Shown in pieces: positions 21,469 through 29,659 of a stretch of 64,000 bases of DNA (position 1 is its first letter; every line of letters begins with the position of its first letter). This DNA is from Anaeromassilibacillus sp. An172 (GTDB lineage Bacteria > Bacillota > Clostridia > Oscillospirales > Acutalibacteraceae). The translations under genes were made by a program, and so were the position numbers. The notes beneath the pieces were generated by a model, which saw nothing but the letters and a program-made list of their open reading frames with translations, had not been told where the DNA came from and ran no database searches. The DNA lies in assembly GCF_002160515.1 (NCBI RefSeq), contig NZ_NFKS01000004.1, forward strand, positions 62,001 to 126,000, given 5' to 3'.

Positions 21469-22134
21469 ATGTCCTTTTTTAATGATTTAGGAAAGAAAAT
21501 CAGCGAGACCAGTCAGGGCGCTGTCAATAAAACAAAAGCAATGGCTGAAACCTCCAGACTTAATTCAGCTATAAATGACTGCAAAAATAAAATCGATATG
21601 GCATACATGGAGATAGGCAATTTCTATGTAAATAAATACGGAGAAAATCCTAACCCTGAGGTTGCCGATAAAGTAAATATGATAAAAGAGCTTGAGGGCA
21701 ATATAAAGAATATGCAGGAAGAAATCAGAAAAATAAACGGATACGCTGTATGTCCGAAATGCGGAAAAACAGTGAGAAACGACGCTTTCTTCTGCGACGG
21801 ATGCGGTGAAAAGCTCAGAAGTCAGGAGCCGGATAACCGCTGCGCTTTCTGCGGAGCCACATTACAGCCAAACGCTTCTTTCTGCACAAAATGCGGAAAG
21901 CCAAGAAATGCTGCACCACAGCCACAGCCTCAACCTCAACCACAGCCACCTTATCAGCCTCCATACGGCGGCCAGCCTTTTAACGGTCAGCCGAAAATGA
22001 ATGTGGACAGTCAGCCTGTCAACAATACAGAGAATGTTAAGGAACCGGCTCCCGCAAAGAAAATATGCCCGGTATGCGGATATGAGCTTGACGCAAGCCA
22101 GGAGATTTGTCTCAGATGCGGAGAAAAACTGTAA
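21469..22134 (+). CDS. zinc-ribbon protein with coiled N-terminus and Pro/Gln linker
   Basis: 221 residues. Residues 1-85 are helical and charged. Then come three CxxC-x(n)-CxxC zinc ribbons: CPKCG/CDGCG (about 95-115), CAFCG/CTKCG (125-145) and CPVCG/CLRCG (200-220). A Pro/Gln-rich linker (a PQ-repeat run about 150-168) separates the second and third. No signal peptide or membrane helix is present. Double-zinc-ribbon proteins of this layout are common in Clostridia, with no agreed function. AAAGGAG lies before the ATG. Confidence 0.85.
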   Translation: MSFFNDLGKKISETSQGAVNKTKAMAETSRLNSAINDCKNKIDMAYMEIGNFYVNKYGENPNPEVADKVNMIKELEGNIKNMQEEIRKINGYAVCPKCGKTVRNDAFFCDGCGEKLRSQEPDNRCAFCGATLQPNASFCTKCGKPRNAAPQPQPQPQPQPPYQPPYGGQPFNGQPKMNVDSQPVNNTENVKEPAPAKKICPVCGYELDASQEICLRCGEKL

Positions 22135-22160
22135 AAGCAATTGTCACGAAAGGATAATAT

Positions 22161-22868
22161 ATGGAAAAAACTTATGTAACGGCGATTATCGTTGCCGCAG
22201 GAAGTTCCACCAGAATGGGCGGTCACGTTAGCAAACAGCTTATGTGTATTTTGGGAAAATCTGTTATAGAGCACACTTTAAACGCCTTTGAAAATGCCGA
22301 AAGCATTGACGAGATTGTCATTGTTGCCAGAGACTGTGACCGTGAGGAAATTCAAAAGAGAATAGACAGAAACGGTTTTGAAAAGGTTAAAAAGATAGTG
22401 ACCGGAGGAAAAACCAGAAGCGAAAGTGTTAGAAACGGTATTGCCCAGTGTGATGAAAAAACCACCCATGTGGCTATTCACGACGGCGCAAGACCGCTGG
22501 TTACCACTGAGGATATAGAAAACGTGGTTGATGTCGGTCTTTGCTACGGCGGAGCCACTTTGGGAACAAAGGTAATAGACACCATAAAGGTTATAGGAAA
22601 AGACAGTGTTATAACATCAACACCTGACAGGGATAAGCTTGTGGCGGTTCAGACTCCACAGGTTTTCAGACTTGAGGACTATATATCCGCTTTGGACGAA
22701 TTGAAGTCAAAGGGAAAAGAGGCGGAGTTTACCGACGACTGCGCAATTTTTGAAGCAACCGGAAGAAATGTAAAGGTTGTGGAGGGAAGCAGAGAGAATA
22801 TAAAAATCACCACCGCCGAGGATATAACCACAGCGGAAAATATTATGCGCAGCAGAAGAAAGGCGTGA
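22161..22868 (+). CDS. ispD: 2-C-methyl-D-erythritol 4-phosphate cytidylyltransferase
   Basis: Third step of the MEP isoprenoid pathway: CTP plus MEP gives CDP-ME. 235 residues with the nucleotide-binding [10 protein letters not shown]-x-SKQL at the start, HDGARPLV in the middle and TPQVFR toward the end, all family hallmarks. Four bases before ispF, in one transcript. Confidence 0.95.
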
Positions 22869-22872
22869 GTTT

Positions 22873-23352
22873 ATGGATATAAGAGTGGGTCACGGCTATG
22901 ACGTTCATCGCCTTGTGGAAAACAGAAAGCTTATAATCGGTGGAGTTGAAATCCCCTGGGAGCTGGGACTTTTGGGTCACAGCGACGCAGACGTGTTGCT
23001 TCACGCCATAAGCGACGCAATTTTGGGAGCGGCGGCCCTGGGAGATATCGGCAGACATTTTCCCGACACCGATGAGAAATACAAGGGCGCAGACAGCCTT
23101 ATGCTTTTAAAAGAGGTCTGCGCAAAGGCGGCTGAAAAGGGCTATCGTGTTTCAAATATCGACGCAACGGTTATTGCCCAGAAGCCAAAGATGAAGGATT
23201 ATATACCTAAAATGTGTGAAAATGTGGCAAAGGCCTGCGGTGTTGACACTGACAGGGTGAATATTAAAGCCACCACAGAGGAAAAGCTTGGCTTTACAGG
23301 CAGACAGGAGGGCATTTCCGCCCACAGTGTTTGTCTTTTGATAAAAGAATAA
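22873..23352 (+). CDS. ispF: 2-C-methyl-D-erythritol 2,4-cyclodiphosphate synthase
   Basis: Forms MEcPP, two steps after IspD. 159 residues, with the zinc-binding GHGYDVHR, the [14 protein letters not shown] motif, [10 protein letters not shown] and the C-terminal [11 protein letters not shown]. IspE, the step between, is not in this window. The ribosome binding site is weak, so translation probably depends on coupling to ispD. Confidence 0.96.
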
Positions 23353-23389
23353 TAATCAGAATATTTCTGACCACGGAGGATAGTTGAAG

Positions 23390-24997
23390 ATGCATAAAAA
23401 AAGAAAAAAGGGAGCTTCTTTCTTGAAAAAAGGGATTTCTTTGGCGATGGGAGCTTTGATGCTTGCATGCACGGTGCTGGGATTATCAGGCTGTGTTTCA
23501 CAGGAGCCGGACGAATATCCGGATAAGGAAGCTTTGAAAATCGCTATTGTAAATTACTACGACTCGGATAAGGATGTGGAGTTCAATCAGGCTGTTGTCA
23601 ACGAGATAAACACATATCTTGACAATATGGGCTGTGAATACAAGGTTGAATTTTCCGGCATACAGCTGTCAGATGAAAATTTCAGGGACAGTGACGCTTA
23701 TAAAAAACTGAAGGAAGCCGACATAGTTTATGCCGCTCCTTATTCCACCGTGGGAGATAACAAGGCAACACTTATTGATGTACTGAACGCACTTATCGAC
23801 GACGGTTATGCCGCTAATCTCAGCGAAAGCCTTGATGGCGGATTAAAGGACGCCGCCGCAGTTTTGGAAAATTACGGTTTTGAATTTGGGGACGAGGTTT
23901 ATTCACTTCCCCTCAATGTGCAGATTCCCGTAAGCGCAGGCATTAAAATTGAAAAAGAACTGCTGGATAAATCAGGCTTTGAGCCGAGAGCATTGGAAAG
24001 CTTTGAGGACTGCGCAGAGCTTTTTGAAAAGCTTTACAAAGCCAACGAAAACGACGCTTTTCTTTTTGTTGACCAGTCAGCCAGCACAGTTGGTTATATA
24101 GAGGTTGGCTACAAAACCACAAAGCCTGCCGTTATGGACTACTTGAGAGACTACATGTTCATAAGCGCATCAACCGCAATAGATTTGAAAACAGGCGAAG
24201 CGGTAAATGTGTACGAAGAGGAAAAAGCCAGAGATTATATAAAAACAATGTACTCCTATTCCGACAAGGGCTACACAACAGGAACATCAAAGGATGCACA
24301 GGCTACTTTTGATATAGCTGTTTATCCTGAGCCATATATGGAGAAAAGCGGTTCAGATGACGAGGAGAACTCATACTATTATGTTCTGCCTATAGGCGAC
24401 GTGATTTCCAGCTATTCAAAGGAAAAACCAACTTCCGGTGTTTGCATTTCAGCGAATACACAGCACAAGGACTGGGCAGAGCAGTTTATAAACCTTGTAT
24501 ACAGCGATGAGGATTTCAAAAGGATTGTAATGTTCGGCGATACAGAAATGACGGTTGAAACCTATCTTACATATCTTGAGGACCATCCAAGAAAGGGACT
24601 TAATCCAACATATGCAGTTCCTTTTATGGAAATGGATGAGGATTTGAACAACATCTACAACTACACAGACCTTGAGGGCAACACCCTCACAATGGAGGGG
24701 ATCTATTCTGCGGCAAAGGAACAGGCTCCTGAGTCTAAGTTCTGTATAGACGCTGTGGACTTCCAGTCCCTCGAAGATGAAATAATGGCTGTAGATGAAA
24801 AAATGAAAGAAATTCTCAAAGATCAGCCGTACATTTTCGCAAACGACGGAATACTTTCCGAAAGCGATGAAACCACCGGCGAATCATTTATAAACAATGA
24901 AACAATTGACGCAGGTCTTGACGAATTAAGCCGCCAGCTTTCAGAAGCCGGAGGAACAACAATAACCGATGAGATAAACAGACAGCTTGGGTATTGA
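23390..24997 (+). CDS. extracellular solute-binding lipoprotein, substrate unknown
   Basis: 535 residues. The start is the ATG at 23390, 9 bases after GGAGGA; an upstream TTG at 23384 is too close to that site. Residues 1-34 are a lipoprotein signal with lipobox LSGC. The body resembles type I/II solute-binding proteins (VYAAPYSTVGD, VYSLPLNVQIPVSAG, and VCISANTQHKDWAEQFINLVYSDE near the C-terminal third). No ABC permease or ATPase lies next to it, so its partner must be elsewhere or it acts as a sensor or surface protein. Possibly co-transcribed with ispDF. Confidence 0.8.
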   Translation: MHKKRKKGASFLKKGISLAMGALMLACTVLGLSGCVSQEPDEYPDKEALKIAIVNYYDSDKDVEFNQAVVNEINTYLDNMGCEYKVEFSGIQLSDENFRDSDAYKKLKEADIVYAAPYSTVGDNKATLIDVLNALIDDGYAANLSESLDGGLKDAAAVLENYGFEFGDEVYSLPLNVQIPVSAGIKIEKELLDKSGFEPRALESFEDCAELFEKLYKANENDAFLFVDQSASTVGYIEVGYKTTKPAVMDYLRDYMFISASTAIDLKTGEAVNVYEEEKARDYIKTMYSYSDKGYTTGTSKDAQATFDIAVYPEPYMEKSGSDDEENSYYYVLPIGDVISSYSKEKPTSGVCISANTQHKDWAEQFINLVYSDEDFKRIVMFGDTEMTVETYLTYLEDHPRKGLNPTYAVPFMEMDEDLNNIYNYTDLEGNTLTMEGIYSAAKEQAPESKFCIDAVDFQSLEDEIMAVDEKMKEILKDQPYIFANDGILSESDETTGESFINNETIDAGLDELSRQLSEAGGTTITDEINRQLGY

Positions 24998-25119: not shown

Positions 25120-25148
25120 AGATTGTAACTGGTAATGCAGGCAAAACT
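25120..25148 (+). promoter_or_regulatory. RAT site (antiterminator target of LicT)
   Basis: The 29-base element matches the BglG/LicT ribonucleic antiterminator pattern (GATTGT-A-ACTG, then GCAGGCAAAAC), and its last ten bases are also the left arm of the terminator. Binding of LicT would block terminator formation. Confidence 0.88.
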
Positions 25149-25184
25149 CCATTAGGTATCTAACGTGGGTTTTGCCTTTTTTTT
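25139..25184 (+). terminator. leader terminator overlapping the RAT site
   Basis: Stem AGGCAAAACTC (25139-25149) with GGGTTTTGCCT (25167-25177), then a run of T. Conditional terminator controlled by LicT. Confidence 0.9.
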
Positions 25185-25226: not shown

Positions 25227-26060
25227 ATGATTATAACAAAGGTTTTGAATAACAACGCTTTTGTGGCTTTAGACGATAACAATAAGGAAATTATCGTCAT
25301 GGGCAGGGGTGTTGGTTTTAAAAAGAAAGCGGGTCAAAAAGTAGAGTTAATGCCGGGTGCGCAGGTTTTTTCCAACCAGGACCAGTCCCTCAACTCAAAA
25401 ATGAAAGAAGTTATAGCAAATATACCCGGCGAATATTTGGATATTACAGAAAAGGTTGTTTCAATTCTCAGCAAAGAATACAACAAAAAGGTACACGATA
25501 TAATTTACGTATCCCTTACTGAACATATCCAAAGCGCAGTTGAAAGATACACAAAGGGATTTGAAATTGAAAATCCTTTGCTCAACGAGATAAAAAGAAT
25601 ATATAGAGAAGAGTATGAGGTTGCGGTTCGTGCTCTTGAATTGATTAAGGATAAGTTCGGCGTTGAGTTTACCAAGGACGAAGCCGGATATATAGCTTAT
25701 CACATTGTAAATGCAGAGCTTGACGGAGGCATGAACAATGTGGCTGAGATGACCCACATAGTGGAGAACATCTTAAATATCGTTAAAAAATATATGAATA
25801 TAGAGTACAATGAAGAGTCCCTTCATTACGACAGATTTATAACTCATCTTAAATTCTTTGCCCAGAGAATTCTGTGCAATACGGTTTATAACGATGATGA
25901 AGAGGAGCTTTTCTCATTCCTCAAAACAAAATATCCACAGTGTTATGACTGCATGACGGAGATTAAAAAGTTTATTGAGGAAGAATATATGTACAAGCTG
26001 ACAGAATCAGAGCAGATGTATCTGATAATACATATTCAGAGAATTGTCAGCGCCTGTTAA
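25227..26060 (+). CDS. licT: PRD-containing transcription antiterminator LicT/BglG
   Basis: 277 residues: a co-antiterminator RNA-binding domain (1-57, starting MIITKVLNNNAFVALD) and two PTS regulation domains. The four regulatory histidines fall at positions 100, 159, 207 and 269, the same numbers as in Bacillus LicT, so phosphorylation by HPr and by EII should still control it. A GGGGGAA site precedes the ATG. Its own leader carries the RAT and terminator, which makes it autoregulated. Confidence 0.95.
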   Translation: MIITKVLNNNAFVALDDNNKEIIVMGRGVGFKKKAGQKVELMPGAQVFSNQDQSLNSKMKEVIANIPGEYLDITEKVVSILSKEYNKKVHDIIYVSLTEHIQSAVERYTKGFEIENPLLNEIKRIYREEYEVAVRALELIKDKFGVEFTKDEAGYIAYHIVNAELDGGMNNVAEMTHIVENILNIVKKYMNIEYNEESLHYDRFITHLKFFAQRILCNTVYNDDEEELFSFLKTKYPQCYDCMTEIKKFIEEEYMYKLTESEQMYLIIHIQRIVSAC

Positions 26061-26312: not shown

Positions 26313-28184
26313 ATGGATTACGCAAGAACAGCGGAAAAAATCCTGGAAAGAGTAGGAGGAAAGGACAATGTTCTGGGTCTTGTACATTGCATGACCAGAC
26401 TGCGTTTTACTCTGAAAGATGAGTCTATTGTAGACGACGATTTGGTAAAGAGAACAAAGGGCGTTATGGGCGTTATAAGAAAGGCAGGTCAGTATCAGGT
26501 TATTATAGGAAACGACGTTGCCTATGTTTATGAAGAGCTGTGCAAGCTTGGAAACTTTAAGGGCCAGCCTGCACCTCAGAAAGCAAACAATGCCCCTAAG
26601 AAAAAACAAAGTATTCCGGCTATGCTGATGGATACTATCTCCGGTATTATGTCACCGGTAATTCCGGCAATCATCGGTGCGGCGATGATAAAGGTTCTTC
26701 TGACACTGCTGCCTATGATTGGCTGGCTGAATACAGAAGGTCAGACCTATCAGATTTTAAGCGTTATAGGCGACGGAGCTTTCTATTTTATGCCTGTGCT
26801 TATAGCTATTTCTGCGGCAAGAAAATTCAACACAAACACATATTACGCCGCAAGCCTTGCACTCATTATGCTGCATCCTAACTTTGTAAGCCTTATGAGT
26901 GCGGCTAACGAAGCGGAACAGACTGTTAAGTTTTTGGGAGTAATTCCGGTTACATACGCAAATTATGCTTATTCGGTTATTCCGATTATACTTTCCGTAT
27001 GGATGCTCAAGTATGTTGAAAAACTGGTTGACAAGATTACTCCGGTTATCACTAAGAACTTCTTAAAGCCTATGCTTGTTGTGCTTATTGCAGCTCCTAT
27101 TGCACTTATTGTTTTAGGACCTCTCGGAGCTATCTGCGGCGAATGGCTTTCAAAGATTGTATACTTTGCTCATGATAAGCTTGGATTTATCGCTGTGGGA
27201 ATTGTTGCAGGTGTGTTCCCATTTGTTGTTATGGCTGGTATGCATCACGCATTTACACCGATTAAGCTGGGAATGATTGCTACAGGCGGATATGAAGCAT
27301 TTATCTGTATTGCCGAGCTTTGCTCAAATATGGCTCAGGGTGCAGCAGCTCTTGCAGTTGCAGTTAAGACAAAGAACAAGGATTTTAAGCAGGTTGCAGG
27401 TTCTTCCGCATTCTCCGCCCTTGTTGCAGGTATCACAGAGCCAGCCCTTTACGGTGTTACAGTAAGACTTAAAAAACCAATGCTCGGAGCATGTATAGGT
27501 GCAGTTGCCGGCGGTCTTTTCGGCGGATTTATGCAGATGAAGTGCTACGGTATCGCAACTCCTGCTATTGTAACAATAGTTCAGTATGCAGAACCTGGCA
27601 ACGCAATGAGCCTTGTTATTGCCGCTTTGACAATTCTCATCACAGTGGTTGTAACATTTATCGCAACAATGATTATAGGCTTTGAGGACATTGTAGACGA
27701 GGATGACGATGATATGCCATCACCGGAGCCTGCAAAGATTGTAGAGCCAAAGAGCAAGTTTGACAAGGTTGTAAGCCCTGTTGAGGGAACTGCGGTTAAG
27801 TCCGAAATCCTTAAAAATCAGGAACAGTCAGAGTTTTCAAAAAATTTCGATATGGTGATGAGCCCGGAGAAAGAAACCGTTTATGCTCCTTTTGAGGGAA
27901 AAGTTCTGAAAGTATCTCAGGACGGAAAAGTTATTGAAATGGAAAAAGCAGGAAGCGGACTTAAAGTAACTTTGAATGTTTTCGGAAGTAAAAATGCTTT
28001 TGAAATAAAGAAAAACCCAGGCGACAACATGTCAGTAGGGGAAGAAATAGGAAAAATAAATACTAATGATTTGAAAAATGCTCTTGTAGGCATAAGCGTT
28101 CAGGAAAAGGAAAAATACATGGACGTTGTGCCGTCACAGAAAGATGTTTTTAGCAGACAGGATGTTTTGGTAACAGTTGTCTGA
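26313..28184 (+). CDS. bglP: beta-glucoside PTS EIIBCA with a histidine-free EIIA domain
   Basis: 623 residues. EIIB (1-90) has its phospho-cysteine C26 in LVHCMTRLRF. EIIC (about 105-455) has the GITEPALYGV loop and about ten membrane segments. An acidic linker follows (EDIVDEDDDDMP). The C-terminal part (about 490-623) aligns with EIIA-Glc by SPVEGT, YAPFEGKVLKV and PGDNMSVGEEIGKIN. The two active-site histidines are gone: the usual LIHIG reads TLNVFG, the usual KHAIGL reads DGKVIEM, and no histidine occurs after residue about 470. The frame is intact, so this is a degenerate domain and not a frameshift. A separate EIIA would have to phosphorylate EIIB. Sits between licT and the GH1 gene. 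Confidence 0.9.
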   Translation: MDYARTAEKILERVGGKDNVLGLVHCMTRLRFTLKDESIVDDDLVKRTKGVMGVIRKAGQYQVIIGNDVAYVYEELCKLGNFKGQPAPQKANNAPKKKQSIPAMLMDTISGIMSPVIPAIIGAAMIKVLLTLLPMIGWLNTEGQTYQILSVIGDGAFYFMPVLIAISAARKFNTNTYYAASLALIMLHPNFVSLMSAANEAEQTVKFLGVIPVTYANYAYSVIPIILSVWMLKYVEKLVDKITPVITKNFLKPMLVVLIAAPIALIVLGPLGAICGEWLSKIVYFAHDKLGFIAVGIVAGVFPFVVMAGMHHAFTPIKLGMIATGGYEAFICIAELCSNMAQGAAALAVAVKTKNKDFKQVAGSSAFSALVAGITEPALYGVTVRLKKPMLGACIGAVAGGLFGGFMQMKCYGIATPAIVTIVQYAEPGNAMSLVIAALTILITVVVTFIATMIIGFEDIVDEDDDDMPSPEPAKIVEPKSKFDKVVSPVEGTAVKSEILKNQEQSEFSKNFDMVMSPEKETVYAPFEGKVLKVSQDGKVIEMEKAGSGLKVTLNVFGSKNAFEIKKNPGDNMSVGEEIGKINTNDLKNALVGISVQEKEKYMDVVPSQKDVFSRQDVLVTVV

Positions 28185-28210
28185 AATGATTTTGATTTGA
28201 GGTGACCTTG

Positions 28211-29659
28211 ATGAAAAATTTGAAAATGCCCCAGAACTTTTTATGGGGAGCGGCTTCGGCTTCTTATCAGATTGAGGGAGCTTATCTGGAGGACGGAAAA
28301 GGCCTTACAAACTGGGATAATTTCGTAAGAATAGAGGGTAAAACCTTTAAGGGAACAACCGGCGATGTGGCTGTTGACCATTATCACAGATACAAAGAGG
28401 ATATCGCCCTTATGGCAGAAGCCGGACTGAAAACCTATAGATTTTCAATAGCATGGGCAAGAATTTTCCCAAACGGCAGAGGAGAAGTAAATAAAAAGGG
28501 TATTGAGTTTTATAACAATATTATAGATGAATGTCTTAAATACTCCATAGAGCCTATGATTACCATATATCACTGGGATTTGCCCCAGGCTTTGGTTGAT
28601 GAATACGGCGGCTGGGAAAGCAGAAAGATTGTTGATGATTTTGTAAACTATGCAACAACACTCTTTAAAGCTTTCGGAAATAAGGTAAAATACTGGATTA
28701 CCTTAAACGAGCAGAATATATTTACATCTCTGGGCTGGCTTACAGCTATGCATCCTCCGGGAAAATTCGACGACCAAAAGACTTTTTATCAGGTAAACCA
28801 CCACGCCAACATGGCTCACGCAAAGACCGTTATTGCCTACAGGGAAATGGGATTTACCGGAATGATAGGCGCAAGCTTTGCCTATACACCTTCTTACGCT
28901 CTCAACTGCGACCCTATAAACGCAATGTCAAAGGTTAACTACGACGATTTAAAAAATTTCTGGTGGATGGATATTTACGCTTACGGAAGATACCCGAAAG
29001 CCGCTATGAAATACTTGCAGGACAGAGGATTTGCCCCTGATATTCAGCAGGGCGATATGGAAATACTCAAAGAAGCCGCTTCAAAAATCAGCTTTATGGG
29101 CGTGAACTACTACCAGTCTTGTGTCTGCGAGTACAATCCTCTTGATGGCGTTACACCTTACGGAACAATGAACACAACAGGCAAAAAGGGAACAGGTGCA
29201 GTTGTGGGAATTCCTGGAGTTTATAAAAATCCGGCAAATACATTCCTTAAAACCACTGACTGGGATTGGACAATAGACCCCAGCGGCTTGAAATACTGCT
29301 GCCGTGAAATCACAAGCAGATATAATCTTCCAATAGTGATTTCTGAAAACGGCTTGGGAGCTTTTGACAAGCAGGAAGAGGACAAGAGCATCCACGACCC
29401 TTACAGAATAGCCTATCTCAAAGAGCATTTAAAGGCTTTGGCTGAAGCTTTGGACGAGGGCTGTGAGGTTATTTCCTACTGCGTGTGGTCATTTACAGAC
29501 CTTTTAAGCTGGCTCAACGGCTATCAGAAGCGTTACGGACTTGTGTATGTTGACCGTGACGAAACAGACAGCGGAAGCCTTGACAGATACAAAAAGGACA
29601 GCTTTTTCTGGTATAAAAAAGTAATAGAATCTCAGGGAAAAGCCCTTTTTGATGAATAA
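28211..29659 (+). CDS. bglA: 6-phospho-beta-glucosidase, GH1
   Basis: 482 residues. Cleaves phosphorylated beta-glucosides delivered by the PTS. Acid/base Glu in TLNEQNI and nucleophile Glu in ISENGLG are present. NGYQKRYGLVYVDRD near the C-terminus carries the Lys/Tyr pair of GH1 enzymes that hold the 6-phosphate. The ATG at 28211 follows GAGGTGA by 5 bases; the GTG at 28202 lies inside that site. Last gene of the operon. Confidence 0.93.
   Translation: MKNLKMPQNFLWGAASASYQIEGAYLEDGKGLTNWDNFVRIEGKTFKGTTGDVAVDHYHRYKEDIALMAEAGLKTYRFSIAWARIFPNGRGEVNKKGIEFYNNIIDECLKYSIEPMITIYHWDLPQALVDEYGGWESRKIVDDFVNYATTLFKAFGNKVKYWITLNEQNIFTSLGWLTAMHPPGKFDDQKTFYQVNHHANMAHAKTVIAYREMGFTGMIGASFAYTPSYALNCDPINAMSKVNYDDLKNFWWMDIYAYGRYPKAAMKYLQDRGFAPDIQQGDMEILKEAASKISFMGVNYYQSCVCEYNPLDGVTPYGTMNTTGKKGTGAVVGIPGVYKNPANTFLKTTDWDWTIDPSGLKYCCREITSRYNLPIVISENGLGAFDKQEEDKSIHDPYRIAYLKEHLKALAEALDEGCEVISYCVWSFTDLLSWLNGYQKRYGLVYVDRDETDSGSLDRYKKDSFFWYKKVIESQGKALFDE

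Follow-up and report, generated by a model that had tools for sequence, protein, structure and literature searches.

What keeps a PTS permease supplied with phosphate when its own EIIA domain lacks any histidine, and why should such a domain persist? These questions are raised by bglP, a gene of Anaeromassilibacillus sp. An172 that we analysed within a 64,000-nucleotide stretch of contig NZ_NFKS01000004.1 (hereafter, the window). The gene belongs to a three-gene operon on the + strand, in which a leader is followed by licT, bglP and a GH1 glycosidase gene:

25121..25150, + strand: RAT-like antiterminator site AGATTGTAACTGGTAATGCAGGCAAAACTC in the operon leader, read by eye from the sequence.
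25139..25184, + strand: intrinsic terminator that overlaps the RAT and is followed by a U run (fold −18 kcal/mol, z −4.8).
25227..26060, + strand: licT, encoding a BglG/LicT-type antiterminator with CAT_RBD and PRD (NCBIfam NF046042 LicT, 335 bits; cut-off 300).
26313..28184, + strand: bglP, encoding a beta-glucoside PTS permease of 623 aa, EIIB-EIIC-(degenerate EIIA), assigned from Pfam, NCBIfam and full-length orthologues 53–66% identical.
26313..26552, + strand: EIIB domain, residues 1–80, with the Cys26 phosphorylation site intact (PF00367, 55 bits).
26613..27677, + strand: EIIC domain, residues 101–455 (PF02378, 136 bits).
28202..29659, + strand: last gene of the operon, a GH1 glycosidase of the 6-phospho-beta-glucosidase type (PF00232, 543 bits).

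A LicT/BglG antiterminator and a GH1 gene are the operon context expected of a beta-glucoside PTS EIIBCA, and the protein has the EIIB with a phosphorylatable cysteine (Cys26) and the EIIC that the corresponding family, TIGR01995, requires (PF00367, PF02378). A sequence-only reading had described the frame and Cys26 as intact, and we found the frame open to residue 623 and Cys26 present. The same reading was right that the antiterminator keeps all four PRD histidines (H100, H159, H207 and H269) and wrong to place it downstream of bglP, as licT (25227–26060) lies upstream. An Rfam search returned no RAT match in the leader; the RAT-like site AGATTGTAACTGGTAATGCAGGCAAAACTC is nearly identical to the RAT-like site GGATTGTAACTGGTTATGCAGGCAAAACC before the orthologous operon in L019, and in the orthologous operon of L032 a GH1 gene again neighbours the permease. 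BglP fell short of the full-length cut-off of TIGR01995 (536.7 versus 614.7 bits), which is consistent with a degenerate EIIA, and among NCBIfam models the IIBC equivalog PRK09796 (cellobiose/arbutin/salicin, AscF-like) came next after the IIABC subfamily.

The features of the C-terminal domain that bear on phosphotransfer are as follows:

27765..28181, + strand: degenerate EIIA-Glc domain, residues 485–623, without histidine (PF00358, 29 bits; AlphaFold model; orthologue comparison).
27927..27929, + strand: K539 codon, aligned with the helper histidine (D-G-K-V-I against T-x-H-A-[VI] in orthologues).
27966..27986, + strand: VTLNVFG, residues 552–558, the acceptor strand (LIHVG in orthologues, from alignments).

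Histidines occur in BglP at residues 25, 188, 287, 311 and 312 only, in agreement with the claim that none remains after residue 470 or so. The PF00358 (PTS_EIIA_1) model matched the isolated domain with 29.1 bits (cut-off 27.2) and scored 24.7 bits within whole BglP, while intact EIIAs, both from relatives and from the An172 genome itself, reached 157–171 bits. Neither the acceptor histidine of the PF00358 motif L-[IV]-H-[VI]-G nor the helper histidine of T-x-H-A is present. At the helper position, replacement of KHAIGL by DGKVIEM had been read correctly, with K539 aligned there. At the acceptor site, the histidine is absent as claimed, and the proposed change from LIHIG to TLNVFG depends on the alignment: in one version V556 of LNVFG replaces the histidine, in another the strand is deleted instead of substituted, and no phosphorylatable histidine is left either way. 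The TVxLxG loop after the acceptor strand is a net five residues shorter than in orthologues. The LIHVGIDTV loop that forms the active site of EIIA has here been both substituted and shortened. These comparisons support the view that the domain would be unable to act as a histidine phosphocarrier and so to take phosphate from HPr, as the sequence-only reading had held.

The domain nonetheless aligned in frame with the EIIAs of four relatives (L017, L022, L032 and L056), scoring 97–122 against shuffled maxima of 48–69, and it can be matched to BglP EIIAs from SPxxG at the start through to KYMDVV...VTVV in the BglP-type tail, which argues for descent from a BglP EIIA and against a swap. A frameshift, or a compensated double frameshift, in the EIIA region was rejected, as the other frames hold no EIIA match, and sequencing error was excluded because identity is 21–26% throughout the domain and the frame stays intact. 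The region 27765–28181 has also drifted towards a generic duplicated hybrid motif, its Pfam M23 score nearly equalling that for EIIA.

Full-length orthologues of BglP (53–66% identity) came from uncultured Merdimonas, Lachnospiraceae, Clostridium, Enterococcus, Oceanobacillus and further genomes of the order and class to which An172 belongs, and both EIIA histidines are kept in all 23 of the other full-length homologues examined. A shared loss was found neither in searches of about 1,960 genomes nor among genome-contig matches, and a scan of viral contigs for the EIIA domain found nothing. As sampled, the loss thus appears private to the lineage of BglP; a set of orthologues sharing it had been put forward as a test for a new use, and here all sampled orthologues are intact. 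Divergence was likewise confined to one domain. Identity to the four nearest orthologues (L017, L018, L032 and L056) was 66–79% in EIIB, 80–84% in EIIC and 21–26% in EIIA, while the EIIAs of relatives were mostly 46–59% identical to each other. On a fixed EIIBC tree, the terminal branch for EIIA measured 3.3 substitutions per site, against 0.34–0.67 in the nearest relatives; the EIIBC branch was ordinary (0.15, versus 0.08–0.19 in all close relatives but one). Some permease relatives (L036, L040, L023–L028 and L030) are IIBC-only, and the EIIA has been lost entirely in L036, L040 and several Enterococcus proteins.

The permease itself was found in two of 398 genomes of its own taxonomic family, one being the source genome. 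In the one congener compared (L062), no bgl operon follows the ispD-ispF-lipoprotein genes, so that the operon was either gained in the source lineage or lost in the congener; together with the sparse distribution in the family, this is consistent with horizontal acquisition or with patchy loss. The ispD-ispF-lipoprotein neighbourhood itself is kept between the two genomes (L062, 1–17001, G106:C4, versus window 21469–24997; 71–92% identity).

A probable source of phosphate lies in the same genome, which encodes EI, HPr and three intact EIIA-Glc domains; two of these are free-standing proteins in which both histidines are present. One free protein (L001, crr-like) is encoded in a crr-ptsI-ptsH-IICB cluster, and an intact sucrose-type IIABC adjoins a GH32 gene. 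Of the genome's eight EIIB domains, six lack an in-frame EIIA, the other two being those of BglP and the sucrose-type IIABC, so that supply of EIIA in trans would be routine there. The proposal that a free EIIA serves BglP is thus well supported by gene content, with two stand-alone EIIA-Glc genes found in the genome search. In Bacillus subtilis, EIIA-less permeases are charged by non-cognate glucose-family EIIAs (PMC6148471), observations that bear indirectly on whether a BglP EIIB would accept phosphate from a free EIIA-Glc. Two further PF00358 matches in the source genome (L005 and L006) were weak and partial and were set aside, L005 lying in an efflux-adaptor-like region and not in a PTS protein. 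The gene for the second free EIIA-Glc is isolated: a site-specific serine-recombinase-like gene lies two genes away (L064, 2484–2993 and 4476–6035), and the pair formed by the sucrose-type IIABC and GH32 genes follows about 8 kb further on. An EIIBC-type PTS frame elsewhere (G000:C25:18305-19671; L016, L051) is broken by a TAA and may be another decaying PTS gene.

We therefore favour, with a probability of about 0.68, the reading that the licT-bglP-GH1 operon encodes an ordinary BglP, in which the fused EIIA ceased to be a phosphocarrier on this lineage because intact EIIA-Glc is provided in trans by the genome. Phosphate would pass from PEP through EI, HPr and a free EIIA-Glc to Cys26 of the BglP EIIB and on to the beta-glucoside; candidate donors are the crr-like protein encoded beside ptsI and ptsH, the other free EIIA, and the EIIA domain within the intact IIABC. 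Charging of Cys26 in trans would leave the fused EIIA redundant: its catalytic role would have been lost and taken over in trans, as in AscF or SacP, and the shell of the domain has so far been kept. In the LicT paradigm, the EIIB of BglP is a negative sensor that restrains LicT through PRD1. We infer both the phosphotransfer to Cys26 in trans and its regulatory effect: with EIIB charged from a shared EIIA pool, the operon would be induced according to whether other sugars of the Glc family are being used.

Whether the remaining domain is under any constraint was assessed with a codon model with shared synonymous branch lengths, in which synonymous changes were near saturation, so that omega values are approximate: omega was 0.35 for EIIA on the BglP branch, against 0.08 for EIIA in relatives and 0.03 for EIIBC, the last a sign of the strong constraint expected of a working transporter. 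Equality of EIIA omega with that of relatives was rejected (2 delta lnL = 54.9), as was neutrality (omega = 1) on the BglP branch (2 delta lnL = 22.0). With seven other branches taken in turn as foreground controls, EIIA omega was 0.03–0.13; two other alignments gave 0.35–0.38 for the EIIA branch of BglP. In simulations of neutral decay to the observed divergence, a stop-free frame survived in 0.6–5% of runs, with indels not yet counted; all EIIA indels relative to orthologues are whole codons, and codon usage is still coding-like. Ten of 21 invariant EIIA positions are kept, and retention of the hydrophobic core was no better than in the neutral simulation, a test that did not discriminate. 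The domain is clearly relaxed, yet on these sequence comparisons probably not wholly free of constraint.

Structure prediction gave a similarly qualified answer. With the orthologue alignment, AlphaFold modelled the domain at pLDDT 89, and the best PDB matches of that model, which leaned on the alignment, were EIIA-Glc (TM 0.69–0.77), in line with the above-threshold PF00358 match of the isolated domain. Folding from the single sequence gave pLDDT 36 and no confident model, which makes retention of the EIIA fold plausible rather than demonstrated. We infer that the C-terminal domain is probably still made and folds, as modelled, into a catalytically dead EIIA shell.

As omega = 1 is rejected, redundancy by itself is an incomplete explanation for the persistence of the domain. 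It is possible, if rather unlikely, that the dead EIIA is kept for a non-catalytic job, a reading compatible with phosphate supply in trans. Such a pseudo-EIIA could be a structural cap or docking module aiding EIIB/EIIC assembly, hold free EIIA near EIIB, or contact LicT or another regulator; the fuller version, in which selection maintains it as a docking or regulatory module wiring the permease and the LicT sensor to the shared EIIA pool, we put forward just as tentatively. The rejection of neutrality, the rarity of open frames in simulated decay, the whole-codon indels, the coding-like codon usage and the alignment-guided EIIA-Glc model all speak for a retained job; the poor single-sequence model and the neutral-like core retention speak against it, and as the histidine-less form occurs in no other sampled genome, conservation of a new role cannot be demonstrated. 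The earlier suggestion of a structural or regulatory module is so far not supported by orthologues, none of those sampled sharing the loss, but it keeps some probability because neutral decay is statistically disfavoured. With a single genome as evidence so far, a new role is a tentative reading.

Plain recent pseudogenisation, with EIIA drifting neutrally and no stop codon yet met, would account for the large acceleration confined to EIIA, the broad damage to conserved positions and the neutral level of hydrophobic retention. We consider it improbable, given the rejection of omega = 1, the low odds of frame survival after so many neutral changes, the whole-codon indels and the retained codon bias; a branch first functional and then neutral could average an omega of 0.35, but would meet the same frame-survival argument. 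That recombination exchanged EIIA for another divergent domain with the duplicated hybrid motif, whether M23-like or an unrelated EIIA, is highly improbable: the weak Pfam M23 match (23.4 bits) comes near the 29.1 bits for EIIA, and a C-terminal-domain search in the family gave only an M23-type protein, but the in-frame alignment with BglP EIIAs spans the domain to its tail, structural comparison places EIIA-Glc first (TM about 0.76) and M23 peptidases far lower, and, no histidine being present, the domain lacks the zinc-binding and catalytic histidines of an M23 active site.

The favoured reading, loss of phosphocarrier function with supply in trans, makes BglP look like an example, specific to one lineage, of an already known type of rewiring. 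BglP would be a test case of how fused phosphorelay domains disappear when a free counterpart exists, and of whether catalytically dead EIIAs take on docking or regulatory roles. In antiterminator-permease-GH1 order, leader RAT and terminator, it resembles the licT-bglP-bglH and bglGTH operons that encode BglP, BglF or BglT, an example being the bglG-bglT-bglH type operon of Clostridium acetobutylicum (CA_C1406-1408; PMC12628678). It also shares with those EIIBCA permeases the EIIB-EIIC-EIIA order, EIIB Cys26 and a LicT with four PRD histidines; it differs in an EIIA with neither active-site histidine, only 21–26% identical to the nearest orthologues.

A literature search found no described histidine-less EIIA fused to a PTS permease, which is weak evidence. 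Regulatory EIIA-Glc domains are fused to the non-PTS permeases LacS and RafP (PMC2848229). As in those proteins, the EIIA-Glc domain of BglP is joined C-terminally to a transporter. The EIIA of LacS keeps a phosphorylatable histidine and regulates through it, whereas that of BglP has no histidine at all. With the EIIA-less permeases AscF and TreB of Escherichia coli, SacP, TreP and MalP of B. subtilis, and L036 and L040, BglP would share the supply of EIIA in trans. Those proteins are without the domain, whereas BglP keeps a full-length, open and apparently catalytically dead one, and may thus represent a natural intermediate between EIIBCA and EIIBC permeases, in which the catalytic residues have gone and the domain remains.
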